A stretch of 64,000 bases of DNA from Candidatus Gemmiger faecavium. Its GTDB lineage: Bacteria > Bacillota > Clostridia > Oscillospirales > Ruminococcaceae. The notes under the pieces were generated by a model. The model ran no database searches and was not told where the DNA came from. It was given only the letters and a program-made list of their open reading frames with translations. How positions within the stretch are numbered: position 1 is the stretch's first letter; each line of letters starts with the position of its first letter. The stretch is from NCBI GenBank assembly GCA_019114415.1, contig DXFO01000040.1:1-64000 (forward strand), given 5' to 3'. The position numbers and the translations under genes are program-made. Positions 28,591 to 34,752 of the stretch are shown one piece after another.

Positions 28591-28744
28591 ACTACCGTGT
28601 ATTTTATGATGCCGGTACTGTGCGCCTTTGCGGGCGCGGAGGGGGCCGGTGTGGACCTGCCCGCCTGTCCGCGGACCGCGGACGGTGTCGGGGCAAAATA
28701 GAGAGGATATGCCGGTTTTGCCCGGCATGTGTCGGAGGAAAGAA

Positions 28745-29566
28745 ATGGACAGATACGACCGCGACCGCCGTGAACCGCGCCAGAACCGCGAACCCCGTGA
28801 ACCCAGAGAAAACCGGGAATCCATGGACACGCTGATCTACGGCAAAAATCCCGTGGCCGAACTTTTGAAGAGCGGCAAGCCGGTGGACACCGTCCTGCTG
28901 GCGGACACCATGCCGGAGGCGGCGGTGGGGTATTACACCGCCCTGGCGCGCCAGGCGGGCGCCGTGACCAAGCGGGTGCCTGCGGGCAAGCTGCGCCAGA
29001 TGTGCGGCGGAGCCGAGCACCAGGGCGTGGCGGCCAGAGCCGCCCAGATCGAGTATGCCTCGCTGGAGGACCTGCTCCAGGCGGCCTGCCAGAAGGACGA
29101 GCCGCCTTTCCTGGTCCTGTGCGACGGCATCGAGGACCCGCATAACCTGGGGGCCATCATCCGGTCGGCCCTTTTGTGCGGCGCCCACGGCGTGGTCATT
29201 CCCCGCCGGGGCGGCGTGGGCGTCAGCGGCACCGTCATGAAAGCCAGCGCCGGGGCGGCGGCACGCCTGCCTGTGGCGCGGGTGCCCAACATGGCCCAGG
29301 CGGTGCGCACACTGAAAGAAAACAACGTTTTTGTATACTGTGCCGATATGGGCGGCGAACCGCTCAGCCGCACCGACCTTTCGGGCGCGGTGGCGCTGGT
29401 CATGGGCAGCGAGGGCAGCGGCGTCAGCGCGCTGGTGCGCAAGCTGTGCGACGGCGTCGTCAGCCTGGACATGGCGGCGCGCAGCACCGGCGTGGACAGC
29501 TACAATGTCTCTGTGGCGGCGGGCATCCTGATGTACGATGTCATGCGCCGCCGGTCCAACGGGTGA
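28745..29566 (+). CDS. rlmB: 23S rRNA (guanosine-2'-O)-methyltransferase, TrmH/RlmB family
   Basis: A 273-residue SPOUT methyltransferase. Residues 1-25 form a repetitive Arg/Glu/Pro-rich tail, then an RNA-substrate-binding domain (DTLIYGKNPVAELL), then the knotted catalytic domain with DGIEDPHNLGAIIRSA, LVMGSEGSGVS and LDMAARSTGVDSYNVSVAAG. It is expected to methylate a 23S rRNA guanosine from S-adenosylmethionine; a tRNA target cannot be excluded. GGAGG lies 6 bases before the ATG. Confidence 0.92.
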   Translation: MDRYDRDRREPRQNREPREPRENRESMDTLIYGKNPVAELLKSGKPVDTVLLADTMPEAAVGYYTALARQAGAVTKRVPAGKLRQMCGGAEHQGVAARAAQIEYASLEDLLQAACQKDEPPFLVLCDGIEDPHNLGAIIRSALLCGAHGVVIPRRGGVGVSGTVMKASAGAAARLPVARVPNMAQAVRTLKENNVFVYCADMGGEPLSRTDLSGAVALVMGSEGSGVSALVRKLCDGVVSLDMAARSTGVDSYNVSVAAGILMYDVMRRRSNG

Positions 29567-29610
29567 CAGGGATACGGACGGTTACACAGTAAGAGGGAGA
29601 GAAACACACC

Positions 29611-32600
29611 ATGCCAAGCAAGCGGACGAATGATTCGGTGGAGCGGATCTTGCAGGAGCTCAACCAGCAGCAGGAGGCCAAGGGAATTCGTGACGGCGTT
29701 ACCGAACGCAACGTGGACGAGATCCTGCGCAGCATCCCGCGTTCCGGTGCTCATCCTGACGACGCCACCGTGCAGCTTGGGCCGATCCCCCAGAGCGAAA
29801 TGCCGAAAGTTGAGGTCAGCGCCGATGTAGCCGACCCGGAATCGCGTTTTTCCACCCAGGCCATCGACGCTTTGCTGGCCGACCTGCCCATCTTCCGCAG
29901 TGAGGAAGTGGTGCGGCATCCGTCGTCGGCGGTCACGGCAAAGCCCGCCCCGGCCAGACGTACCGCGCCCGCGGCCCCGGCGGCACAGCCCAAGAGCAGC
30001 GCCCGCCCCGCGCAGCAGCCTGCCTACCGGGAGGAAACTCCGGTCCAGCGCACCGAACCTGCGCCCCGGACGGAACAGACCGTCCGCGCGCCGGAACCCG
30101 AACCCCGGCAGGATGCCGGTCAGGACCGGGAACAGCCCGAGAACACGCTGGTCGATACTACCCGCACCGGCATCATCAAAAACTTCCTGCGCCAGATGAG
30201 CGGGGAGGATACCGAGGACCTTTCCCAGCGCAAGAACCAGTTCCAGCGCTTCTTTGAGGAGAGCGTCGCTGTGGTGCCCGATGACAAGGGCAAACTGCCT
30301 TCCGAGAAAAAACGGGGCAAAAAGCGTGGCCTGTTCGGGCGCGGGGACGATACCGGTGAGATCACCGATGAATTTGTACCCATCAACGTCTCCATCATGG
30401 GACGGAACAATACCCAGGACCAGCCCGAGGAACAACCGGAGGAGGACAGCGCGTCCCGCAGGGAAGCCCCCCGCAAAAAGCGGGGCCTGTTCGGGCTGTT
30501 CGGCGGACGGGATGAATCGGAGGAGATGGAGCCGGAGAGCGATCTGACGGCATACCCCGAGGAAGAACCCGCCCTCCGCCAGGAGCCGGAAGAACCTGCG
30601 CCCATGCCGGAACCGGAGCCGGACATCCCGGAGGAGGAACCGGAATATCAGCCGCAGCCCCAGCCGGAGCCGGAACCCGGACCCCAGAAATACGTCTATC
30701 GTTCCAAATATGCGGGGACCCGGCGGGTCCATGGCTCCCTGGCCGATACCCTGTCCTCCCTGGGACTGTACCATACCGATGCTTCCCGCATCCGTGCCCA
30801 GGCGGACGCCGTGCGTACCGATCCGACCCCGGCGGCCCCGGTGCGTTCGCAGCCTGCCGTCCGGGAGGAGACGCCCGTGCAGGAGCAGCCCGCTCCGGCC
30901 GAGACCTTCCCGCAGGAGGAAGCCCCCCGCAAAAAGCGGGACACGGTGGAATTCATGCCGGGCAAAAAGCCCCATGAACCGCCGGCAGAGGAAGCGCGCA
31001 CCCAGACCTTCCACGCCAGTGAGCCGGTGGGCGAGCCGGTGATGACCCCGGCGGACACGCTGGCATCGGGCTTTACGGTGGATATGTCGGAACGGGACGA
31101 GAAAGAAGATACCCAGGACTTCCTGAAATCGGTGGAGCCCGCCCTGCCGCGGACACAGCGGACAGGGGACACTGCCCGCTCCCGCACGGCGGCCCGGACC
31201 GACCCGGCCATGACCGTGGAGCAGCCTTCCCTCGACCACACCATGACCGGTCAGGTCAAGCTGGATCTGGCGTCGGAGGCCACCCGGCCGGTGGACCGCA
31301 CCATGACGGGACAGGTGCGCCTGGATGCTCCCGCCCAGCCCAGCGATACCCGTGATTTCGACCTGGATATCCTGGGCCCCCAGATCGAGGAAAAGCCCAA
31401 CACCGAACAGTTCGTGCGCGGCATTGCCCAGACCCTGAATGCCGGGGTGGATGCCGCACAGGAGGAGACGGCTTCCGACCGCTATGCGGAAGCCGCCGCC
31501 CGCCTGACGGCTCAGGAGCCGGACGACGAGGCCGAGCAGCCCCGCAAAAAGCGCGGCCGCATGCGGTTTGCGGGCAATGCCGACGATGAGCACGAGGGCG
31601 GAGAGTCCGGCGGGCCGTTCGCCGCAGCCGAGCACCGTCATAAGCTGGACTACGAGACCACCGAGGACGCCCCTAAGGTGCGGCAGGAACTGGACAAACA
31701 GAACCTGCTGGCTACCGTTGTGGCCATCGTGTCCGGTGCGGCGGCCCTGGTCATGCTTTACCTGGGAACCGCGGTCGTGGGCAGCCTGCCCATGCCCGCA
31801 CCCCTCAACCCCGATGTGTCGGCGGCGCCGCTGCTGGTCGTCATGCTGGTGCTGCTGCTTGTCACCTGTGCACTGAACTGGAAAACCCTGCTGGACGGCT
31901 GCATCGGTCTGGTGCGTTCGCCTACCCCCGATACCATGCCGTCGCTGGCGGCTTTGGGGGCGCTGATCCAGCTGCTGGTGTTCCTCATTCAGCCCGAGTG
32001 GTACGACCCGGCCAAATTCTGCCTGATGTCCGGCCCGGCGGCGCTGCTGCTCTGCTTCAACGCCGTGGGCAAAATGCTGGATGCCCGCACCGTCCGTGCC
32101 AACTTTGACCTGGTCAGCGCCGGGGTGGACCACGCGGTGGCCTACCGCCTGCGGGATGCCGCCGTGCTGCGCACCGTCACCCGCGGCCTGGGTGAGACCA
32201 AGCCCTGCCTGCTGGTCAGCCGTCCCACCGTCCTGCTCAAAAACTTCCTGGCCGGCAGCGGCGCGCACCGCACGTCCGACAAGAGCCAGCAGCAGTTCAG
32301 CTGGGCGCTGGGCGTCTGCGGCCTGCTCAGCCTGGTGTTCACCCTGCTTTACCGCGGTGACCCGGGCATGGCGTTCTCTGCCATGGCGGCGGTGTTCTGC
32401 CTGGGCACCCCCCTGTCCGGCACCCTGATCTCGGCACTGCCTGCCCAGCTCATGCAGCGCAGTGCCGCCCGCGTGGGTGCGGTCATTCCCGGCTGGAAGG
32501 ATATCCGCCAGCTGGGCCGCACCAACATCATCCAGATCACCGCCCGGGATCTCTTCCCCTCCGGGTGCGTCACGCTGACGGGCATCCGTCCCATCGGCAA

Positions 32601-33369
32601 GGAGCGCATCGACCTGGCCATCCCCATCGCCGCCTCGGTCCTGGCCGAGGGCAGCACCACCCTGCGGGATGTGTTCCTGGGGATGATCGGCAACGACCGC
32701 AAACTGCTGTTGAAAGTGGACGACCTCAAGACCGTCTACGGCAAGGGCTATGTGGCCTGGGTCAACGGCAGCCGGGTGCTGGTGGGCAACCGTGCGCTCA
32801 TGGAGGAATATGAGATCCATGTCCCCAGCATGGACTTTGAGCGCCGCCACTCGGTGAACCAGCGGCGGGTGATCTATCTGGCCGTGTCCGGCAACCTGAC
32901 CGCCATGTTCCAGGTCAGCTACCAGCGCGACCCCGACACCGCCGCCGTGCTGGAAAGCCTGCGCCGTGCCGGTATGTCCATCATCGTCGACTGCGACGAC
33001 TTCAACTGCGACGTCAACCTGGTGGAGACGGTCTACGGCCTGCCGGGTGATTCGGTCAAGGTGCTCAACGCCGAGGAGCGGGAGGCTCTGGCCCCAGCCA
33101 CCGCCTGGCTGCCCGAAAGCGAGGGCAACATGCTGCATCTGGGCAGCTTTGCCAGCTTTGTAGGCGGTCTGGAAGCCGCCGCCGGTGCAGCCGAAGGCGA
33201 ACACCGGGCCAGCATCGTGCTGGCCGCGTCGGTGCTCATCAGCTGCGTGCTGGCGGTCATCATGTCGCTGGCGGGCGGCATCGTCTCGCTGCCGCTGCCC
33301 GCCATGGTGCTGTACCAGGCAGGCTGGGCGGTGCTGGCACTGGTGTTCCCCATGACCCAGCGCTACTGA
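29611..33369 (+). CDS. Degenerate P1B-type ATPase-like membrane protein with a long disordered N-terminus
   Basis: The 1252-residue protein has two parts. Residues 1 to about 690 are low-complexity, rich in Glu, Pro, Arg and Gln, with four basic PRKKR-like motifs (three of them in the forms KKRGLFG or PRKKRG) and two DxTMTGQVxLD repeats. Residues about 699-1252 follow the order of a P1B-type metal ATPase: paired membrane helices, a helix with CLGTP at 930-934 where CPC normally lies, then D980-LFPSG in place of DKTGT, a nucleotide-domain-like GKGYVAWVNG and VLVGNRALMEE from 1044, C1128-DDFN where TGDN stands, and two final membrane helices. Phosphorylation and metal motifs are all altered, so transport by the usual cycle is unlikely. 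It follows rlmB by 44 bases. No described function is known to me; a membrane scaffold or sensor is possible. Confidence 0.8.
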   Translation: MPSKRTNDSVERILQELNQQQEAKGIRDGVTERNVDEILRSIPRSGAHPDDATVQLGPIPQSEMPKVEVSADVADPESRFSTQAIDALLADLPIFRSEEVVRHPSSAVTAKPAPARRTAPAAPAAQPKSSARPAQQPAYREETPVQRTEPAPRTEQTVRAPEPEPRQDAGQDREQPENTLVDTTRTGIIKNFLRQMSGEDTEDLSQRKNQFQRFFEESVAVVPDDKGKLPSEKKRGKKRGLFGRGDDTGEITDEFVPINVSIMGRNNTQDQPEEQPEEDSASRREAPRKKRGLFGLFGGRDESEEMEPESDLTAYPEEEPALRQEPEEPAPMPEPEPDIPEEEPEYQPQPQPEPEPGPQKYVYRSKYAGTRRVHGSLADTLSSLGLYHTDASRIRAQADAVRTDPTPAAPVRSQPAVREETPVQEQPAPAETFPQEEAPRKKRDTVEFMPGKKPHEPPAEEARTQTFHASEPVGEPVMTPADTLASGFTVDMSERDEKEDTQDFLKSVEPALPRTQRTGDTARSRTAARTDPAMTVEQPSLDHTMTGQVKLDLASEATRPVDRTMTGQVRLDAPAQPSDTRDFDLDILGPQIEEKPNTEQFVRGIAQTLNAGVDAAQEETASDRYAEAAARLTAQEPDDEAEQPRKKRGRMRFAGNADDEHEGGESGGPFAAAEHRHKLDYETTEDAPKVRQELDKQNLLATVVAIVSGAAALVMLYLGTAVVGSLPMPAPLNPDVSAAPLLVVMLVLLLVTCALNWKTLLDGCIGLVRSPTPDTMPSLAALGALIQLLVFLIQPEWYDPAKFCLMSGPAALLLCFNAVGKMLDARTVRANFDLVSAGVDHAVAYRLRDAAVLRTVTRGLGETKPCLLVSRPTVLLKNFLAGSGAHRTSDKSQQQFSWALGVCGLLSLVFTLLYRGDPGMAFSAMAAVFCLGTPLSGTLISALPAQLMQRSAARVGAVIPGWKDIRQLGRTNIIQITARDLFPSGCVTLTGIRPIGKERIDLAIPIAASVLAEGSTTLRDVFLGMIGNDRKLLLKVDDLKTVYGKGYVAWVNGSRVLVGNRALMEEYEIHVPSMDFERRHSVNQRRVIYLAVSGNLTAMFQVSYQRDPDTAAVLESLRRAGMSIIVDCDDFNCDVNLVETVYGLPGDSVKVLNAEEREALAPATAWLPESEGNMLHLGSFASFVGGLEAAAGAAEGEHRASIVLAASVLISCVLAVIMSLAGGIVSLPLPAMVLYQAGWAVLALVFPMTQRY

Positions 33370-33427
33370 TCCCGTTTGCCGGGGGCCTTGCGCCCTTTGA
33401 TACCATGTGAAGGAGGGCCTTGCCGCC

Positions 33428-33841
33428 GTGTACCGTGTCAAAGACCGCCAGATGAGCGTTTACGATTATATCCCGCCGTATCATGGGGAATTGTCGCACA
33501 AAAACCGCTGGGTGCGCCTGGCGTCTGCCATAGACTGGGATGCCTTTGAGCATGAGTACAGTGCTCTGTTTGCCCGGGGCGGCAAGGTGGCCATCCCGGC
33601 GCGGGTGGCTCTGGGCAGCCTGATCATCCGGGAAGCCTGCGGCGTCTCCGACCGGGAGACGGTGGCCCTTGTGCGGGAAAGTCCCTACCTGCAATACTTT
33701 CTGGGGCTGAAAGCCTTTGCCGACGAAGCCCCCTTCTCGGCCCGGAGCATGGAGATGTTCCGGCGCCGCATTCCCCGCGCCGTGGTGCGGGATGCCGTGC
33801 GGCTTCTGCGCGGCTTTGAACGCGAGGACCGCCCGGACTGA
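33428..33841 (+). pseudogene. IS1182/IS5-type transposase fragment (N-terminal domain only)
   Basis: The 137 residues match the N-terminal DUF772 domain of IS1182-type transposases (YIPPYHGELSHKNRWV, LGSLIIREACGVSDRET, SPYLQYFLGL). The DDE catalytic core is absent and the frame ends cleanly at a TGA, with no terminal inverted repeats seen. A good site (AAGGAGGG) 10 bases before a GTG at 33428 means it may still be translated. It is either a remnant of an insertion or a domesticated DNA-binding domain. Confidence 0.75.
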
Positions 33842-33885
33842 ACCGTCCCGGCGTCCGAACAATTTTGATGACATAGAGGGTGTAT

Positions 33886-34752
33886 ATGGAAATTCTTTTG
33901 CATTCTGTCATCCACGCGCTGGAGGACAGCGTGCGGATGCTGCCGTTTTTGTATCTTGCCTACCTGCTGATCGAGTGGCTGGAACGCCACCACGGCCAGC
34001 GCATCGAGAATGCTCTGGCCGGCGGCGGGCGATGGGGCTTTGCCCCCGGCGCTCTGCTGGGCTGTGTGCCGCAGTGCGGCTTTTCCGCCGTGGCCTCCAA
34101 CCTGTATGCCAGCCGGGTCATCACCCCCGGCACGCTGCTGGCGGTGTTTATCGCCACCTCCGACGAGGCCATTCCTCTGCTGGCGGCGGAGCCCGGCCAG
34201 TGGGCGTCTTTGCTGGCCCTGCTGGTGCTGAAAGTCCTGTTCGCCATGGTGGCGGGCTTTGTGCTGGATGTGCCCCTGCGCCGGTTCCTGCCCAAGTCGC
34301 TGTACGGCGGCTACTCCGGCAGCGCCGAGGAGATCGACTGCCACGAGGAGCACGAACCTCACAGCGGCATCTGGCTGGCCGCCCTGCGCCATACCCTGGA
34401 GATCTTTGCCTTTATCCTGATCTTCAGCTTTGCCATCGGTCTGGTGTTTGAGTTGGTGGGCGAGGATACCGTGGCCGGCGTCTTTACCGGGCTGGGCATC
34501 TTCCAGCCCATGGTGGCCGCGCTGCTGGGCCTGGTCCCCAACTGCGTATCCAGCGTGCTGCTGACCCAGCTGTATGTGGAGGGGGTCATCTCCTTCGGCA
34601 GCCTGTTCGGCGGTCTGTGCGCCGGTGCTGGCATCGGCCTGGCCGTGCTGTGGCGGGTCAACCGCAGCGTCAAACAGAATCTGTTCATGACGGGCCTGCT
34701 GTGGGCTGTGGGCGCGGTGTGCGGCATCGTGCTGCAGTTCTTGCCTTTGTGA
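33886..34752 (+). CDS. ArsP_2/putative manganese exporter-like membrane protein
   Basis: A 288-residue protein with about eight to ten membrane segments arranged in two repeats. Each repeat holds a conserved motif: GCVPQCGFSAVASNLYA (around 60) and GLVPNCVSSVLLTQLY (around 215), the pattern of the putative 10-TM heavy-metal exporter family (ArsP_2). A His/Glu-rich loop (CHEEHEPH) separates the halves. The ATG at 33886 follows AGAGGG by 6 bases. A metal or metalloid exporter is likely; the manganese label given to the family is not proven here. Confidence 0.78.
   Translation: MEILLHSVIHALEDSVRMLPFLYLAYLLIEWLERHHGQRIENALAGGGRWGFAPGALLGCVPQCGFSAVASNLYASRVITPGTLLAVFIATSDEAIPLLAAEPGQWASLLALLVLKVLFAMVAGFVLDVPLRRFLPKSLYGGYSGSAEEIDCHEEHEPHSGIWLAALRHTLEIFAFILIFSFAIGLVFELVGEDTVAGVFTGLGIFQPMVAALLGLVPNCVSSVLLTQLYVEGVISFGSLFGGLCAGAGIGLAVLWRVNRSVKQNLFMTGLLWAVGAVCGIVLQFLPL

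Follow-up and report, generated by a model that had tools for sequence, protein, structure and literature searches.

The window analyzed here, a stretch of 64,000 nucleotides from Candidatus Gemmiger faecavium (contig DXFO01000040.1, positions 1 to 64,000), carries on its forward strand an intact open reading frame (ORF) of 1252 codons (P0001; 29611 to 33369), which constitutes a whole pseudo-P1B-ATPase gene. The product shows a long N-terminus, probably disordered as judged by its composition, followed by a body of ∼565 residues related to the P1B P-type ATPases. The family appears to be an ancient one that would have been inherited within a single bacterial order from a copper-pump-like ancestor. 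That the protein does not pump is well supported by its sequence. A phosphoenzyme pump cycle is most likely impossible because the metal-binding Cys pair, the aspartyl-phosphate motif DKTGT, the dephosphorylation (TGE) loop, the SEHP motif, and the Mg loop of the presumed ancestor are lost. Since these working parts are lost and the gene is nevertheless retained almost universally, the protein probably performs another job, perhaps holding proteins at the membrane.

Homology to P1B-Type ATPases

Detection of P-type homology in this protein needs models or profiles other than Pfam, because Pfam is silent on the single protein (no match at an E value of ≤10). The profile search proposed in an earlier note on this DNA has a divided outcome, with nothing from Pfam and matches to TIGR01525, the CopA model, and the copper pump LpCopA. 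Among the NCBIfam models, TIGR01525, for heavy-metal P-type ATPases, is matched at residues 887 to 1124 (E value, 4.9e-8) and the CopA model at residues 1030 to 1135 (E value, 1.3e-7). Both matches are weak, with a score of 32.9 bits against a cutoff of 1316 for the CopA model. In a sequence search of the PDB with the single protein, LpCopA (3rfu) ranks first (E value, 5.3e-7).

A profile of 48 aligned rows (A3) finds LpCopA as its best match among the PDB sequences, with an E value of 6.2e-31, and all 47 matched sequences are named as P-type ATPases. Each of the 48 rows matches the CopA model at an E value of ≤0.01 (best, 7.2e-21), and sequence homology over the core is thus present. The suggestion of the earlier note that the C-terminal half follows a heavy-metal ATPase is borne out by NCBIfam, LpCopA, and this profile. 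Pfam leaves 43 of the 48 relatives without any match and assigns the other 5 only to the broad HAD model, and on this account a core membrane protein of the order appears to be undescribed. In a quick tree of 46 rows, the family forms one side of a branch separating it from 10 canonical pumps, with a Shimodaira-Hasegawa-like approximate likelihood ratio test (SH-aLRT) value of 100 and long-branch warnings.

Eleven canonical pumps serve as controls, two from the genome of the window (L001 and L003) and nine from other Clostridia (L155 to L163). Four P-type ATPases were found in the genome of the window; the remaining two, L002 and L004, escape the A3 profile and therefore lie outside the control set.

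Loss and Retention of Pump Motifs

The motif register derives from a MAFFT alignment with canonical pumps, and motifs are counted over three overlapping sets of 29 rows (the genus of the window), 48 rows (A3), and 36 rows (A4, which includes the deepest branches). CPC and SEHP are motifs of P1B-type ATPases, and both are visible in the canonical controls. DKTG, CPC, and GDGxND are each found in 0 of the 29, 0 of the 48, and 0 of the 36 rows, compared to 11 of 11 controls for each motif. DKTG, TGDN, and GDGxND are used as defined in PMC6592433 (this and the other papers cited by PMC number are drawn on from partial text).

The earlier note had seen CLGTP in place of CPC, D980-LFPSG in place of DKTGT, and CDDFN in place of TGDN. 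All three motifs are indeed altered, and the correction concerns their register and the extent of the third change. The CPC columns correspond to T933-P934-L935, and the Cys of CLGTP precedes the first Cys column by three residues. The DKTGT columns hold T977-A978-R979-D980-L981, so that the column of the phosphorylated Asp is occupied by T977. D980 stands opposite the Gly of DKTGT and is rejected as the catalytic Asp. In the TGDN columns, C1128-D1129-D1130-F1131, the Thr, Gly, and Asn are replaced in the window protein and the Asp is retained as D1130.

The alternatives CPH and SPC are likewise missing from the window protein. Across the 36 rows of A4, the first CPC column holds Cys in 4 rows and the last column in 1, and the M4 proline is kept in 27. 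The window protein contains no TGE in its A-domain loop, its sole TGE lying at residue 248 in the tail; all 11 controls carry the motif. In the relatives, TGE appears at scattered aligned positions, a few of them in the loop (842, 845, 860, 862, and 888), without a fixed column. SEHP is absent from the N domain in the aligned rows (9 of 11 controls have it), and a single SEHP in L072 aligns to residue 885, outside that domain.

The earlier note had named close relatives with intact DKTGT as what would refute it. None occurs among 70 distinct orthologues, whose aligned segment lacks DKTG. Of the DKTGT letters, these orthologues keep the Lys in 0, the second Thr in 0, the first Thr in 4, and the Gly in 1. 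Column 977 holds Thr in 21, Ser in 7, and Ala in 1 of the 29 genus members. The replacement is itself conserved within the genus as DLFPxG: position 980 is Asp in 28 of the 29, and L981, F982, P983, and G985 are invariant.

The nucleotide-domain core GKGYVAW/VLVGNR, described earlier as kept, is present in both parts with conserved glycines. G1046, G1059, and D1130 are invariant in all 36 rows of A4, with G1044 kept in 19 and N1060 in 17. The N domain has the lowest sequence entropy (mean, 2.21 bits; 22 of 100 columns below 1.5 bits), followed by the P1 segment (2.26 bits), with domain borders set by hand.

Distribution and Selection

Genome searches follow the GTDB order, which we take to be Oscillospirales, with 297 sampled genomes in 22 family codes; this order includes abundant gut bacteria such as Faecalibacterium and Ruminococcus. 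Of the 35 genomes of the genus, 34 match at an E value of ≤1e-3 and 32 at ≤1e-100 by hand count, including the genome of the window. Of the three remaining genomes, one shows a short pump-like frame with a weak hit, the second an N-terminal fragment where a contig ends, and the third no match. Across the order, the A4 profile matches 287 of 297 genomes at an E value of ≤1e-45 (hand count), in all 22 family codes, and 296 of 297 at ≤1e-15, possibly with canonical pumps among them. Nine of the ten genomes without a match at ≤1e-45 have matches between 2.4e-40 and 6.4e-20, and one lacks any match; these ten pool possible cases of divergence, gene loss, and gaps in the assembly. Full-length coverage in the order is judged among the matches listed. 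These counts replace those of an earlier search with the narrow profile A1 (196 of 297 at ≤1e-3).

At the level of the class, A4 at an E value of ≤1e-36 finds 21 of 22 genomes of the order and 1 of 371 others, of which 351 are counted as outside the order because the genome list runs by kinship. The single outside match, G854, is partial and belongs to a canonical pump with DKTG, and it is rejected as a family member.

The ORF is a genuine, undamaged gene that is subject to purifying selection. The ratio of nonsynonymous to synonymous substitution rates (dN/dS) compared to the near relative L035 is 0.116 for residues 688 to 1252 and 0.291 for residues 1 to 687; compared to L036, the values are 0.149 and 0.302. 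With L037, L041, and L050, the ratios are 0.27 to 0.47 for the C-terminal part and 0.31 to 0.45 for the N-terminal part, at synonymous distances of 0.52 to 1.51. The open frame of 1252 codons in the earlier note is confirmed, and its view of a maintained gene agrees with the low dN/dS with near relatives and the near-universal retention in the order. A decaying or recently mutated pump gene, for which the lost catalytic motifs and an in-frame TGA in one relative could be cited, is rejected as next to impossible, contradicted as it is by the order-wide distribution, the low dN/dS with near relatives, and the conserved DLFPxG.

N-Terminal Extension

Residues 1 to 687 are rich in Glu, Pro, Ala, and Arg, with a net charge of −45 by composition. 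Conserved islands in 21 full-length genus members lie at residues 1 to 40, 181 to 260, and 436 to 480 and in the segment before the first helix. SV[DE][RKQ]IL at residue 9 and VDxIL at residue 35 are kept in 21 of 21. These elements, and not the PRKKR and TMTGQV motifs singled out earlier, are the conserved features of the tail: PRKKR is found in 5 of the 21 members and TMTGQV-like repeats in 3, and the latter are rejected as conserved motifs.

SVERIL/VDEIL is likely the counterpart of a VDDILxE motif in distant relatives. Within the first 130 residues of the tail, the loose expression [VLIF][DE]x[IL][LMI]x[ED] is present in 15 of the 20 family loci and in 12 of the 20 from the order, compared to ∼0.2 of 20 in shuffles, a contrast that is somewhat flattering because the expression was chosen after the N-termini had been inspected. 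Tail length in these 40 loci ranges from 120 to 899 residues.

Strict motif patterns find the pseudo-ATPase gene as their most frequent target, with hits named by eye. In 13 genomes they give 11 hits (1 in the control), comprising 7 pseudo-ATPases, two of them in one genome, and 4 unrelated proteins. In 12 genomes there are 4 hits (0 in the control), namely 3 pseudo-ATPases and 1 signal peptidase II (LspA). In 78 genomes of the order there are 26 hits (3 in the control): 14 pseudo-ATPases, 1 LspA at the same place as that of the 12-genome search, 1 ABC-2 permease, and 10 proteins judged unrelated, four of which look like EF-Ts. The signal peptidase II (L196/L207, G306) carries a long Ala/Pro-rich tail whose end is EYSLEDILAEFRDI, and the ABC-2 permease (L224, G144) has a long N-terminal extension with FSIDDILAEI. 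The like motif on these two proteins is a lead, not proof.

Proposed Function and Alternative Readings

We favor, at roughly even chances, a non-pumping membrane platform in which the headpiece would hold some ligand or partner, perhaps a nucleotide, and the tail would dock partners; the platform function, the docking, and the possible nucleotide binding are what we infer from the features above. The membrane bundle and the headpiece of N and P domains appear to be kept. The headpiece, with its retained GxG/GN core, would hold the ligand or partner, and the flexible cytoplasmic tail would recruit at least one partner to the membrane, presumably through its start, which carries SVxxIL and VDxIL in the genus of the window and VDDILxE in many relatives. 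Because the gene is retained in almost all genomes sampled from the order, the job is probably a housekeeping one in the envelope or in membrane-linked growth. A bolder extension, which we regard as unlikely, would be a membrane hub in which F/Y-S-V/I/L-D/E-D/E-I-L-x-E docks the pseudo-ATPase, the ABC-2 permease, and signal peptidase II to one cytoplasmic partner, forming an order-specific envelope-organizing system.

Several observations weigh against the platform. The tail is not universal: open frames among the order matches listed range from 544 to 1488 residues, and those of G271, G336, and G463 (544 to 554 residues) leave no room for it. The tail motif is missing in 5 of 20 family and 8 of 20 order relatives; the strict search of 78 genomes reached only 23 of them, and neither it nor the 13-genome search gave a hit in the genome of the window. 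Outside the family, the like motif, which otherwise speaks for docking, is seen on no more than the two membrane proteins with long extensions, in one genome each. The HAD hydrolase model PF00702 matches 5 of the 48 rows weakly (best, 6.5e-5), and the order search includes a copy with an in-frame TGA (G248). Nucleotide binding is doubtful because the Glu and His of SEHP are lost. Column 977 is Asp in 16 of the 19 relatives from families f21 and f22, 17 of 51 relatives from the family of the window, and 15 of 36 rows of A4. The ancestor may have had Asp there, and unusual chemistry remains conceivable because this residue survives at the catalytic column in relatives.

A sensor of nucleotides or small ligands, with a headpiece that binds ATP, ADP, or another ligand without hydrolysis, undergoes a conformational change, and signals via the tail, docking being secondary, seems rather unlikely. 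It would account for the invariant second Gly of GxG and Gly of GN in the 36 rows, and for the human protein TMEM94, which is motif poor too, micromolar binding of AMPPCP has been reported, with no ATPase activity detected (PMC12134183). However, the N-domain site has lost the Glu and His of SEHP, the Asn of GN is kept in only 17 of 36 rows, the glycines are possibly kept for folding only, and the canonical pocket is occluded in the cryo-electron microscopy structure of TMEM94/ERMA (PMC13322241).

An unorthodox transporter, which would still move an ion either without phosphorylation or through a noncanonical acceptor (D977 in relatives, or D980), is improbable. The Asp at the catalytic column in most f21 and f22 relatives, the invariant D1130, the frequent M4 proline, and a putative heavy-metal exporter gene (ArsP_2) near the window gene agree with transport, as does the Mg2+ uptake claimed for ERMA despite its DKQGI and GSSANL motifs (PMC13322241), a claim that is disputed (PMC12134183). 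Against it stand the catalytic column of the genus, which holds Thr, Ser, or Ala in all 29 members, the near-complete loss of the DKTGT letters in the 70 orthologues, and the absence of GDGxND and CPC from all three alignments. It is equally improbable that the protein serves another transporter or an envelope enzyme, such as the ABC-2 exporter or LspA, as a regulatory or partner subunit: both bear the like motif, but in one genome each, and neither shares a common neighborhood with the pseudo-ATPase in the loci compared.

Comparison with Known Systems

The family resembles the P1B copper ATPases (CopA and LpCopA) in the 4+2+2 helix layout by hydropathy, the P1 segment, an N domain that carries GxG and GN, and the Asp in the TGDN columns. 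It differs from them in lacking CPC, DKTGT, SEHP, and GDGxND as well as a TGE in the short A-domain loop; Pfam finds no heavy-metal-associated (HMA) domain, and ∼690 residues precede the first helix.

The earlier note knew of no described pseudo-P-type ATPase, which overlooks a disputed eukaryotic parallel. Human TMEM94/ERMA combines, by published motif descriptions, a P-type-like architecture with altered catalytic motifs, showing DKQGI for DKTGT, GSSANL for GDGVND, and no TGES (PMC12134183 and PMC13322241). Its pumping is disputed, with no detectable ATPase activity in one report (PMC12134183) versus claimed Mg2+ uptake in the other (PMC13322241). By analogy, TMEM94 would be the nearest known parallel; in contrast to the bacterial family, it is human, has 10 helices, and keeps the Asp and Lys of DKTGT. 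The guanylate cyclase-linked P4-ATPase of apicomplexans likewise joins a P-type ATPase module to another part but, unlike this family, retains the DKTGT Asp (PMC6592433), and in Plasmodium the activity of the ATPase domain is essential according to the title of PMC7858053.

Pseudoenzymes and a disputed eukaryotic pseudo-P-type ATPase are thus known, and no bacterial pseudo-P-type ATPase, order-wide or otherwise, is described in the literature searched, which covers few subscription papers and is represented by partial text. Dead relatives of ion pumps seem to be rarely described, and the human case is disputed. An order-wide bacterial family that keeps the core without the catalytic motifs would offer a genetic test of the role of the P-type headpiece beyond pumping.

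Gene Map and Neighborhood

Hydropathy gives eleven raw peaks, merged by hand into eight (∼696 to 732, 730 to 765, 774 to 797, 801 to 823, 895 to 916, 921 to 945, 1196 to 1235, and 1224 to 1249), which fits the P1B layout. The region of residues 696 to 823 shows a weak match to residues 116 to 207 of LpCopA that is not significant alone.

Features of the pseudo-P1B-ATPase gene and its surroundings (positions in the window)
Feature	Residues	Positions	Strand	Remarks
rlmB-type ribosomal RNA (rRNA) methyltransferase (SpoU_methylase)		28628..29566	+	Upstream neighbor; Pfam
Antisense open frame		29500..33441	−	1313 residues
Candidate docking motif, SVERIL at 9 and VDEIL at 35	1-40	29611..29730	+	21 genus members
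Tail island, DTTRTGIIKxFL...KNQFQxFF...AVVP...KRGLFG...PINVS	181-260	30151..30390	+	Consensus, 21 genus members
Tail island, RKKRxTVEFxPGxK...EPVGEP	436-480	30916..31050	+	Consensus, 21 genus members
Juxtamembrane DYxxPxDAxxV	670-695	31618..31695	+	A3 majority consensus; weaker in A4
Four predicted membrane helices (as MA, MB, M1, M2)	696-823	31696..32079	+	Hydropathy
Short loop at place of A domain	824-894	32080..32292	+	TGE absent; PF00122 not matched
Two predicted membrane helices (as M3, M4)	895-945	32293..32445	+	Hydropathy, alignments
TPL, CPC columns	933-935	32407..32415	+	Pro kept, neither Cys present
TARDL, DKTGT columns	977-981	32539..32553	+	Continues into family motif DLFPxG (980-985)
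GKG, GxG of nucleotide domain	1044-1046	32740..32748	+	Second Gly 36/36, first 19/36 rows
GNR	1059-1061	32785..32793	+	Gly 36/36, Asn 17/36 rows
CDDF, TGDN columns	1128-1131	32992..33003	+	Asp1130 36/36 rows
Two predicted C-terminal membrane helices	1198-1249	33202..33357	+	Hydropathy
DUF772 ORF		33407..33841	+	144 residues
Putative heavy-metal exporter (ArsP_2)		33880..34752	+	10 transmembrane helices

Of the 22 genus loci, 21 have the rlmB-type gene upstream, and the remaining locus begins inside the gene. On the same strand and no more than four genes upstream, it is found in 18 of 20 family loci (one of the two misses being a contig start) and in 16 of the 20 from the order. Downstream, the next three genes include an EF-G-like one in 6 of 20 family and 7 of 20 order loci. 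A protein of ∼90 to 120 residues with a C-terminal hydrophobic stretch is encoded within four genes upstream in 12 of the 20 loci of the family and in 1 of the 20 of the order (for example, L090, 4539 to 4799; L092, 10906 to 11280; and L097, 5230 to 5577), and the single copy scanned, that of L090, shows no Pfam match.

Directly downstream of the pseudo-ATPase gene, the DUF772 ORF contains only a transposase N-terminal domain (E value, 2.1e-11). It recurs just after the pseudo-ATPase in 21 of 21 genus loci (L035 to L055) as an open frame of 136 to 181 residues with 64 to 95% identity and looks like a domesticated transposase domain. The putative exporter gene (ArsP_2; E value, 4.9e-19) has a counterpart at the corresponding place in at least 8 of 22 genus loci, and a metal link is still conceivable because a gene of this type recurs near the pseudo-ATPase. 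The long antisense frame opposite the pseudo-ATPase gene appears to be a shadow frame produced by G+C-rich codons.

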